Positions 10,764-48,098 of a DNA stretch of 64,000 nucleotides are shown here, one piece after another. Under the pieces are notes generated by a model that was given only the letters and a program-made list of their open reading frames with translations, was not told the origin of the DNA and did no database searches. Source of the DNA: Sulfurospirillum sp. UBA12182 (GTDB taxonomy: Bacteria; Campylobacterota; Campylobacteria; Campylobacterales; Sulfurospirillaceae); the NCBI GenBank assembly GCA_002742765.1, contig DLUF01000027.1, positions 1-64,000 on the forward strand, in the 5' to 3' direction. Every line of letters begins with the position of its first letter. Within the stretch, counting starts at the first letter, position 1. A program made the translations under genes and the position numbers.

Positions 10764-12125
10764 ATGTCTGTATCAAAGTACGTAGACAAAGTTCTTGAAA
10801 AAATCGTAGAAGAGACTCCTGGGCAAACAGAATTTTACCAAGCTGTTGAAGAGGTTCTTCACTCCCTCTCACCTCTTTTAGAGGCTGAACCAAAATATGA
10901 TGATTTTAACATCCTAGAGCGCATCGTTATCCCTGAGAGAACCATCATTTTCCGAGTTGTTTGGCTCGATGATGCTGGAAAAATTCAAACGAATATGGGA
11001 TATCGTGTTGAGTTCAACTCTGCCATAGGACCATACAAAGGTGGACTACGTTTTCATCCTTCTGTAAATCTTGGAATTATAAAATTTTTAGGATTTGAGC
11101 AAATCTTTAAAAACTCCCTCACTGGTTTAAATATCGGCGGTGGTAAGGGTGGTTCTAACTTTGACCCAAAAGGAAAAAGTGAAAATGAGATTATGAAGTT
11201 TTGCCAAGCTTTTATGAGTGAACTTTATAGACATATAGGCGAGACAAAAGATATCCCAGCTGGTGATATCGGTGTTGGAGCTAGAGAACTTGGTTATATG
11301 TTTGGACAGTACAAAAGACTTACAGGAACTTTCGAGGGTATCTTAACTGGAAAAGGGTTAAACTGGGGTGGTTCTTTAGTACGAAAAGAGGCTACTGGAT
11401 TTGGTTCTGTTTACTTTGCTGAAGAGATGTTCAATAAACGAGGTGATAGTCTCAAAGGTAAATTAGCGAGTGTTTCAGGAAGTGGAAATGTGGCTACATA
11501 TACCATCCAAAAACTTTACGATATGGAAGCAATTCCTGTTACATGTAGTGACTCTCGTGGGATGATTTACCATAAAAGTGGTATAAACCTTGATACTTTA
11601 AAAATCATCAAAGAAGTAGATAGAAAATGTCTCTCAGAATACGCAAAACTACACAAAGATGCAACTTATATCCCTGTACATCAATATCCTGAAGGTAGAA
11701 ATGCTGTTTGGAGTGTTCCTGTACAAGCAGCCTTCCCTAGTGCAACGCAAAATGAACTGAATTTAGAAGATGTAAAAACACTCCATAAAAATGGTTGTCA
11801 GCTTATTTGTGAAGGTGCAAACATGCCTTCAACTCTAGCGGCTGTTGATTATATAGTTAACTCTGATATCCTTTATGGTCCAGCAAAAGCTGCAAATGCT
11901 GGTGGTGTTGCAACAAGTCAATTAGAGATGAGCCAAAATGCAAGTATGCAAAAATGGTCTTTTGCTGATGTTGATAACAAACTAAGAACTATCATGAAAT
12001 CTATCTTTAATATCTCTTATGAAACATCTAAAGAGTTCAATGATGAGGGTAACTTAGTTCTAGGAGCAAATATCGCAGGATTTAGAAAAGTAGCTGATTC
12101 TATGATCGACCAAGGTGCGGTTTAG
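10764..12125 (+). CDS. gdhA: NADP-type glutamate dehydrogenase
   Basis: Assimilates ammonia by reductive amination of 2-oxoglutarate. 453 residues, the length of the hexameric small class. The block GGKGGSNFDPKGKSENEI, the catalytic PAGDIGVGARELGYMFGQYK and the Rossmann motif SGSGNVATYTIQKL are all present, with KWSFADVDNKLRTIM in the C-terminal part. NADP preference is inferred from similarity to the anabolic class. One degenerate palindrome copy (GTTACATGTAGT, 11538-11549) is in frame. The gene ends at a strong hairpin built from two further palindrome copies. Confidence 0.95.
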   Translation: MSVSKYVDKVLEKIVEETPGQTEFYQAVEEVLHSLSPLLEAEPKYDDFNILERIVIPERTIIFRVVWLDDAGKIQTNMGYRVEFNSAIGPYKGGLRFHPSVNLGIIKFLGFEQIFKNSLTGLNIGGGKGGSNFDPKGKSENEIMKFCQAFMSELYRHIGETKDIPAGDIGVGARELGYMFGQYKRLTGTFEGILTGKGLNWGGSLVRKEATGFGSVYFAEEMFNKRGDSLKGKLASVSGSGNVATYTIQKLYDMEAIPVTCSDSRGMIYHKSGINLDTLKIIKEVDRKCLSEYAKLHKDATYIPVHQYPEGRNAVWSVPVQAAFPSATQNELNLEDVKTLHKNGCQLICEGANMPSTLAAVDYIVNSDILYGPAKAANAGGVATSQLEMSQNASMQKWSFADVDNKLRTIMKSIFNISYETSKEFNDEGNLVLGANIAGFRKVADSMIDQGAV

Positions 12126-12128
12126 TAG

Positions 12129-12163
12129 TTTACATGTAAGAGCTTTTGGCTCTTACATGTAAA
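12129..12163. terminator. Bidirectional terminator made of two inverted TTTACATGTAA copies
   Basis: TTTACATGTAAGAGC (12129-12143) and GCTCTTACATGTAAA (12149-12163) are perfect inverted repeats of 15 bases around a five-base loop. It lies in the 57-base gap between convergent gdhA and upp, so it can serve both. Each arm carries the TACATGTA core that recurs across the window. A proper T-run is weak on both sides. Confidence 0.8.
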
Positions 12164-12182
12164 GATTAAAGTTTTATGGTTT

Positions 12183-12806
12183 TTAAGTGTTAAAAACTCT
12201 ATCCCCAGCGTCACCAAGACCTGGAACTATATATCCATTTTCATTTAGTCCATCGTCTATGCAAGCCGTGTAAACTTCTACATCTGGATGAATCGCAGTA
12301 AATTTCTTAAGCCCCTCTGGTGCAGAAACCAAAGCTAAAAACATGATGTTTTTAATCCCTTTACTTTTTAGAAAATTCACAGCATCTATCGCTGTTCCAC
12401 CTGTTGCAAACATAGGATCGATTATGATAGCAGTTCGTTCAGTATGGTCACTTGGAAGTTTTGCATAGTAAAATTCCGCTTCAAGTGTCTTTTCATTTCT
12501 TTGAAAACCTAAAAATCCAACACTCGCATCAGGAATGAGTTTAAATATCCCATCAAGCATACCAAGAGCAGCTCTCAAAATCGGACATATCATTATCTTT
12601 GTGTTTAGCTTTTTTGCATTTGCTGTTGCTACTGGTGTTTTTACTTTTACATCACGAAGAGGTAAATCTCTTGTCGCTTCAAAAAGCATGAGATAAGAGA
12701 TTTCATCAACTAAAAGTCTAAACTGAAATGGCTCAGTCTTTTCATCTCTTAAGATAGAAAGTTTGTGTTGAATCAGTGGATGGTCTATAACGTTTACATT
12801 TTTCAT
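12183..12806 (-). CDS. upp: Uracil phosphoribosyltransferase
   Basis: Pyrimidine salvage enzyme: uracil + PRPP to UMP. 207 residues, the normal length, with the PRPP loop IIDPMFATGGTAIDAV and the C-terminal uracil-binding GYIVPGLGDAGDRVF. Its start codon lies inside a 21-base sequence that is repeated exactly 82 bases upstream, and an 11 bp hairpin ends just before the GGGGA ribosome binding site. It is probably transcribed with adk upstream. Confidence 0.95.
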   Translation of the reverse strand: MKNVNVIDHPLIQHKLSILRDEKTEPFQFRLLVDEISYLMLFEATRDLPLRDVKVKTPVATANAKKLNTKIMICPILRAALGMLDGIFKLIPDASVGFLGFQRNEKTLEAEFYYAKLPSDHTERTAIIIDPMFATGGTAIDAVNFLKSKGIKNIMFLALVSAPEGLKKFTAIHPDVEVYTACIDDGLNENGYIVPGLGDAGDRVFNT

Positions 12807-12900
12807 ATCAATTGTCCCCTTTTTTCGAAACTAATTTCGAAAAAATTCCTCGCGACTGAAGCACGAAGTAAACTTCTGTATTTTTCATATCAATTGTCCC
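12798..12900 (-). repeat. Hairpin leader element (copy A) flanked by 21-base direct repeats, upstream of upp
   Basis: Between adk and upp, the plus-strand 21-mers at 12798-12818 and 12880-12900 are identical; each carries a ribosome binding site, an ATG and four further codons. Between them lies, on the minus strand, AGGAA, a perfect 11 bp hairpin (12820-12845, arms TTTTTTCGAAA and TTTCGAAAAAA, loop of four) and then GGGGA. The upstream ATG opens a 26-codon reading frame (12888 to 12808) whose TGA overlaps the upp start region. The hairpin part matches copies upstream of the dCMP deaminase gene and fliQ. The direct repeats look like a duplication made when the element arrived. Confidence 0.75.
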
Positions 12901-47128: not shown

Positions 47129-47282
47129 ATATTAACCCTTTTATATGAATTTTTATTTTATCATTTTGTGCTTGAAAAAGTCTTTAGAACTTTTTTATTT
47201 CATTTTATCTCAAAAAAGTTTTACTGCAAAAAAATATTTCATTTCGTAATATTTAGTAAAAAAGCTTTACATGTACACCAAG

Positions 47283-48098
47283 CTATTCAACGGCAACCAA
47301 AGCCTTTAGATTTTTACATGTAAAGAGTTTGACACTTTCACTCTTAAGTGATTTTAACTCACTACTAAACCCTCTTTTTGCAAAAATCAAGAACATATCT
47401 GCTTTTATCCCAACTGCCTCACAAGTAGTTTTTAACTTCCCTAATTCACTCTTCTTTATCTTAGCATTGCTATATTTGCAAACACCTACTATAATCTGAT
47501 TTGCACGAGTTCTTCCTACTAAGTCTAACTCATTTTTTTCATCCCAGTATCTTCCAAGCTCATAGATTCTATCTTCTTCAAAACTTTTTCTCACAAACTC
47601 ATGGCAAAGTTGTTCAAAAACAACAGCCCTTAAATCACTCAATTTATTTTCAAAGTTCTCAAAAAACTCCGTATAATCTCCCTCTTTGATACCTCTAAAA
47701 AATGGTGAAACAAGGGCAAACCAAAATCTTAAAAATGGTGAAGCAAAATGAAGTTTATCAGAAACTTCTTTATTAGAATTATTTGTTTTTAGGTGATGAT
47801 AAGAACTCTCTAGTGATAAAATGCCATTTTTTCTTAATGTATTAATACACTCCATACCCTCACTAAAAGAGACTTTTGCTCGCTTAAAAGCAGAATTTGT
47901 CCTTCTATCTCCTCTAGCTAAACCACTTAAAATAGCGTGTAAAACATTTTCTCCATCAGTAAAATCACTCACAAGATTTCTTAGATTTTTGTACTCATCT
48001 AATATATGTTTTTGTACGAGTTCCTCTATGGGTTTACTTGTATCTAAATGGATATCCAATCCTCCAAAAACACTAAAATAGTCTATCGCAATTTCCAT
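47283..48098 (-). CDS. Lone DUF234-domain protein without its ATPase
   Basis: 271 residues corresponding to the C-terminal part of the ATPase-DUF234 proteins (compare 29253-30581): FASPFLRFWFALVSPFFRGI, AVVFEQLCHEFVRKSF, ELGRYWDEKNELDLVGRT. The nuclease-like motif is altered: where the other protein has Glu-Cys-Lys, this has Val-Cys-Lys (IIVGVCKYSN), so nuclease activity is doubtful. No P-loop is present. The role is unknown. The last codons contain a perfect TTTACATGTAAA, and another core lies just past the stop. Confidence 0.7.
   Translation of the reverse strand: MEIAIDYFSVFGGLDIHLDTSKPIEELVQKHILDEYKNLRNLVSDFTDGENVLHAILSGLARGDRRTNSAFKRAKVSFSEGMECINTLRKNGILSLESSYHHLKTNNSNKEVSDKLHFASPFLRFWFALVSPFFRGIKEGDYTEFFENFENKLSDLRAVVFEQLCHEFVRKSFEEDRIYELGRYWDEKNELDLVGRTRANQIIVGVCKYSNAKIKKSELGKLKTTCEAVGIKADMFLIFAKRGFSSELKSLKSESVKLFTCKNLKALVAVE

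Follow-up and report, generated by a model that had tools for sequence, protein, structure and literature searches.

The window, by which we mean the whole stretch of 64,000 nucleotides of Sulfurospirillum DNA analyzed here, contains two convergent genes separated by a short intergenic gap. Upstream lies gdhA (10764-12125, plus strand; Pfam PF00208 and PF02812), which encodes glutamate dehydrogenase, and on the other side lies upp (12183-12806, minus strand; Pfam PF14681), which encodes uracil phosphoribosyltransferase. The gap is occupied by a hairpin at 12129-12163 that starts 3 nt past the gdhA stop codon and ends 19 nt from the end of upp, and that consists of a perfect 15-bp stem and a 5-nt loop with a copy of TACATGTA, an exact 8-bp palindrome with a CATG centre, in both arms. 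The 5' arm TTTACATGTAAGAGC (12129-12143) carries the copy at 12131-12138, the loop (12144-12148) reads TTTTG on the plus strand, and the 3' arm GCTCTTACATGTAAA (12149-12163) carries the copy at 12154-12161. Folding of a 41-nt segment gave -21.5 kcal/mol on the plus strand and -20.5 kcal/mol on the minus strand (z = -7.2 and -9.9, respectively), and none of its shuffles folded as well on either strand. The coordinates, Pfam matches, and folding thus bear out what a sequence-only reading of this DNA had described, namely 15-base arms that contain the motif core and form a perfect stem between convergent genes. The rest of the gap on the upp side (12164-12182) has no T-run adjoining the stem on either strand. 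A further, single motif copy is located within gdhA (11540-11547), and a 21-bp direct repeat, ATTTTTCATATCAATTGTCCC, occurs around the upp start (12798-12818) and again where the adjacent adenylate kinase gene ends (12880-12900), the repeat being a duplication of the upp start region.

The same reading had described two inverted copies of the motif. Two copies are indeed present, but their inverted orientation carries no information for the core, because TACATGTA is self-complementary and any two copies would form an 8-bp stem. The informative, non-trivial part of this stem is the complementary insert, that is, the inner five bases of the arms (AGAGC/GCTCT), together with the outer TT/AA flanks, which are part of the usual flank of the motif.

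The motif is by no means restricted to this gap. The window holds 34 copies of TACATGTA against 0.9 expected, a sample of about 692 kb from the same genome holds 369 against 11 expected, and the whole genome holds 1,019 against 45 for the backwards control. Enrichment reached at least 8-fold in 33 of the 37 Sulfurospirillaceae genomes; it was weaker, about 2- to 4-fold, in three others (G013, G014, and G025). G005 was the one family genome without any enrichment in TACATGTA; another CATG-centred palindrome, ATCATGATA/TATCATGA, is enriched there (332 copies versus 6 in the control; stretches L228-L247), is distributed evenly over genes and gaps, and has neither gene-end bias nor gene-end pairs. 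Outside the family, genomes were sampled from 22 further families of the order, and TACATGTA was enriched in none of them. Forms with one mismatch were not in excess, with 241 seen against 336 expected in the sample of the own genome and 112 against 150 in G019; these expectations are somewhat inflated, as copies of the motif enter the background model, and still no excess was apparent. Mutational decay of the motif was considered for G013, whose gdhA-upp locus reads TAGATGTA, but one-mismatch forms were not in excess in the sample of this genome either (157 versus 151 expected). The literature covered by our search, which took in few subscription journals, contained nothing on TACATGTA or on uptake sequences in Sulfurospirillum.

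Next we consider close pairs of the motif and their position relative to genes. Copies of TACATGTA separated by 1-30 nt form 44 pairs in the own genome, compared with none for the control motif and about 14 expected from random placement (P = 8e-11). With 44 pairs versus 0 and 1,019 copies versus 45, pairing by chance was ruled out, and the earlier claim that a genome-wide sequence was recruited here is supported. These genome-wide counts derive from sequence searches, while positional statistics were obtained from the 692-kb sample and from 400 kb of each of three relatives, using gene calls from a simple codon-usage caller. Convergent gaps of the own sample carried 7.86 copies per kb, tandem ones 1.31, and divergent ones 0.75, compared with about 0.41 per kb inside genes, where 257 coding sites account for about 70% of the sampled copies. 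The sequence-only reading had staked its proposal on the existence of further gene-end pairs in the genome, and these were found in 13 of 46 convergent and 10 of 327 tandem gaps, with none in 78 divergent gaps (convergent versus divergent, P = 7e-7). The sample was picked to include pair-bearing contigs and overstates the absolute pair rate, but this is not expected to be the reason why gap types differ. In G019, from which 400 kb were sampled at even spacing and without selection, pairs were found in 4 of 22 convergent, 1 of 207 tandem, and 0 of 41 divergent gaps. Once the preference of single copies for convergent gaps is allowed for, pairs are modestly over-represented in these gaps (P = 0.02).

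Inserts between the two copies show more complementarity in intergenic than in coding pairs (P = 2e-5). Among many relatives, pair-bearing loci were convergent in 23 cases, tandem in 28, divergent in 6, coding in 11, and partial in 3, and 25 were placed at locus edges. Relatives rich in the motif have many pairs, motif-poor relatives and outgroups have about none, and in a public scan pair-bearing contigs belonged mostly to Sulfurospirillum and its relatives, on which the assignment of the family to Sulfurospirillaceae is based. A looser motif pair, with copies 39 nt apart and no complementary insert, was also noticed in the window at 47268-47322, where its overlap with the end of a gene on the minus strand amounts to 40 nt.

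On the basis of its position, a role of the gdhA-upp hairpin as a terminator or in 3'-end formation is plausible. As for the features of an intrinsic terminator, there is a stable hairpin past the stop codon and no T-rich tract past the stem: only two thymines occur in the 10 nt beyond the second motif copy, whichever strand is read, and a consensus terminator scan did not list the hairpin. The same holds for the class, since gene ends with a pair average 3.53 thymines per 10 nt against a background of 3.51. By a hairpin-plus-tail score, strong stems occur at 91% of pair ends versus 31% of other convergent ends, whereas T-tails are no more frequent (20% versus 27% at a threshold of 2.5). A canonical T-run terminator is therefore not supported, there being no T-run at this hairpin nor at pair hairpins as a class. 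The gdhA-upp element had no Rfam match.

The history of the locus was traced in relatives. A hairpin follows upp in all 22 family relatives examined, mostly with gdhA still close by, and these hairpins differ widely in sequence and hold either no motif copy or one; two copies after upp were found in the own genome only. In G003, G007, and G019, a CGGGC...GCCCG sequence adjoins a single motif copy, and several genomes of genus g4 carry the motif-free AAAAAGGG...CCCTTTTT. In G002 (L192), a perfect palindrome of 26 nt, AAAGAGCCTTACATGTAAGGCTCTTT, has the motif at its centre and represents an alternative way to build a gene-end hairpin after upp. Since the hairpin is conserved in position, differs in sequence, and contains at most one copy in relatives, the motif appears to have joined a gene-end hairpin that already existed. 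The earlier statement that two motif copies build the gdhA/upp terminator needs correcting accordingly: the hairpin is made of two copies here, but relatives have hairpins with one copy or none at the same locus. The family shares the position of this hairpin, and comparison of these loci suggests that the motif was recruited into it by different routes.

Flanks of the motif vary within the family from clade to clade. The usual form in the own genome is TTACATGTAA, and another form, CTACATGTAG, was found at 202 of 379 sites in G008 and 220 of 491 in G011, compared with 4 of 1362 in G019 and 5 of 1019 in the own genome. As a share of all sites, CTACATGTAG reaches about 14% in G004 and about 35-53% in G008, G011, G017, G020, G023, and G018, versus less than 1% in the own genome and about 2% or less in genus g2 overall. 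These figures are direct pattern counts, small loci having yielded too few sites. Along the complete G019 genome the motif is evenly spread (variance/mean 1.16), with no sign of polarity.

Genes for natural transformation were present in the own genome (comEC, dprA, and a GspE/GspF-type system) and equally so in motif-poor genomes and outgroups, and are thus uninformative as to the difference between motif-rich and motif-poor genomes. Loss of competence genes was not supported as a cause of motif loss in G005 and G013, both of which retain ComEC, DprA, and GspE. D12-class methylases are common across the family. Within this class, to which the search was directed, presence does not track that of the motif: no match was found in the motif-rich G006, G028, and G033, and one was found in G005.

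Several known systems resemble the Sulfurospirillaceae motif. As the earlier reading had stated, uptake sequences are paired at gene ends elsewhere, with published examples from Neisseria and Pasteurellaceae (PMC1852404). The neisserial DUS (GCCGTCTGAA) likewise occurs clade-wide in about 1,000-2,000 copies per genome, and its close pairs, which are found in terminators, like those described here lie mainly tail-to-tail and form long stems with fewer thymines (PMC1852404). Dialects are a further shared trait, reported for the DUS of Neisseriaceae (PMC3630211). On the other hand, DUS is not palindromic, its pairs have conserved A/T tails (PMC1852404) where Sulfurospirillaceae pairs have no T-run, and uptake through the receptor ComP is proven for DUS whereas the Sulfurospirillaceae motif is a candidate only. 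The Pasteurellaceae USS (AAGTGCGGT) is similar in copy number, with 1,471 in H. influenzae, and forms inverted pairs in terminators (PMC1852404), but it too is non-palindromic. Moreover, both H. influenzae and N. gonorrhoeae have an excess of near matches to their uptake sequences (PMC1939737), which is not seen for the Sulfurospirillaceae motif. Such an excess is usual rather than part of a strict definition, and our claim is therefore that the motif works like DUS and USS, not that it is a member of either. Within the order shared with Sulfurospirillaceae, Campylobacter jejuni relies for DNA uptake on a site methylated by CtsM (PMC8468864), a short methylated site being recognized there as opposed to an over-represented 8-mer with dialects.

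Taken as analogies, the pairing of the motif at gene ends, the number of its copies, its dialects, and its even distribution agree with DNA uptake sequences. The gdhA-upp element is a gene-end hairpin with TACATGTA in its arms, and we consider it reasonably probable that TACATGTA, a family-wide chromosome-marking palindrome, serves in DNA uptake (self-recognition) during natural transformation. In the mechanism that we propose, an uptake receptor would favour motif-bearing DNA, and transformation would keep adding and repairing copies, which short non-coding gene ends would tolerate best. Pairs with complementary inserts would form the stem of a 3'-end hairpin at such ends, and this hairpin may end or protect the mRNAs of both convergent genes. 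Between gdhA and upp, the motif would have been taken up by a hairpin position conserved in the family. A more specific version, in which Sulfurospirillaceae possess a palindromic, dialect-bearing uptake sequence with a symmetric and perhaps methylated site, pairs end transcripts without a T-run, and G005 switched to another palindrome, is offered tentatively, and we would not call it probable.

The main rival holds that TACATGTA is an iterated palindrome comparable to cyanobacterial HIP1 (GCGATCGC), kept by a methylase or repair system acting on the CATG centre, with gene-end pairs reflecting relaxed constraint on non-coding DNA and the co-option of ready-made stems. As a perfect palindrome with no near-match excess, TACATGTA agrees with HIP-type palindromes by analogy; both HIP1 and TACATGTA are exact, highly over-represented 8-bp palindromes, and the CATG-centred ATCATGATA enriched in G005 recalls the alternate HIPs that replace HIP1 in some cyanobacteria (PMC4390886). 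HIPs associate with methylases (PMC4390886), for which the frequency of the D12 class in the family and the CtsM-methylated uptake site of C. jejuni offer parallels; since the latter is required for uptake, the uptake and methylation readings may not exclude each other. HIPs are denser, however, at about 1,000-2,000 per Mb (PMC4390886) compared with about 450 per Mb for TACATGTA, which is also paired at gene ends. Strong gene-end pairing and dialects are a known habit of uptake sequences, the D12 methylases do not follow the motif, and the G005 palindrome shows no gene-end preference or pairing. We regard both this rival and its account of the pairs as unlikely, if worth keeping in view.

Gene-end enrichment, long stems without a T-run, and a symmetric site that suits a dimeric binder would also be expected of an abundant architectural or transcription-ending protein, for which gene-end pairs would be double sites that block or end transcription. 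The predominance of intragenic copies, the even, unpolarized spread in G019, and flank dialects inside one family speak against such a protein and make it quite improbable; TTTACATGTAAAG is proposed as a motif-bearing pull-down bait, with a scrambled counterpart as control. A last reading takes the hairpin for a common intrinsic terminator, or else for a mobile hairpin of the REP type, in which the 8-mer is present by chance. It draws on the motif-free relatives that have a hairpin at the same locus, but it is contradicted by the genome-wide pair counts, the missing T-run and Rfam match speak against it, and it appears very improbable. For mobile hairpin repeats (REP/MITE), inserts vary between pairs, which therefore did not arise by copying of a single mobile element, and single copies, unlike REP, lie mostly within genes; this candidate was rejected.

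Over-represented uptake sequences have so far been found mainly in Neisseriaceae and Pasteurellaceae. If the uptake reading is true, Sulfurospirillaceae would add a third group unrelated to these two, with a palindromic motif whose dialects differ within a single family, and such a sequence would be new for Campylobacterota. How self tags arise and change could then be tested directly, and the methylation-based self-recognition of Campylobacter might be connected with sequence-based tagging. The gene-end hairpins would then be an independent repeat of the co-option known from Neisseria, and the motif would be of practical aid in transforming Sulfurospirillum for dehalogenation studies.

Finally, we looked at stretches that depart from the even spread in G019 and at one accessory contig. 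One 20-kb sample of this genome (L255; G019:C1:910001-930000) is motif-free, and with its flanks (L307 and L308) included, the region devoid of the motif extends over about 24 kb, has a lower G+C, and encodes two phage integrases, a CI-like repressor, and a HipA-type protein. This stretch is probably an acquired island, and its lack of the motif counts in favour of the uptake reading. The motif is not missing from all accessory DNA, however, since the plasmid-sized contig G003:C2 (39,868 bp; L302 and L306) holds 14 copies, which counts against that reading. The same contig encodes a D12 methylase, McrBC-like restriction genes, AbiEii, and proteins with Sir2 and ADP-ribosylglycohydrolase domains.
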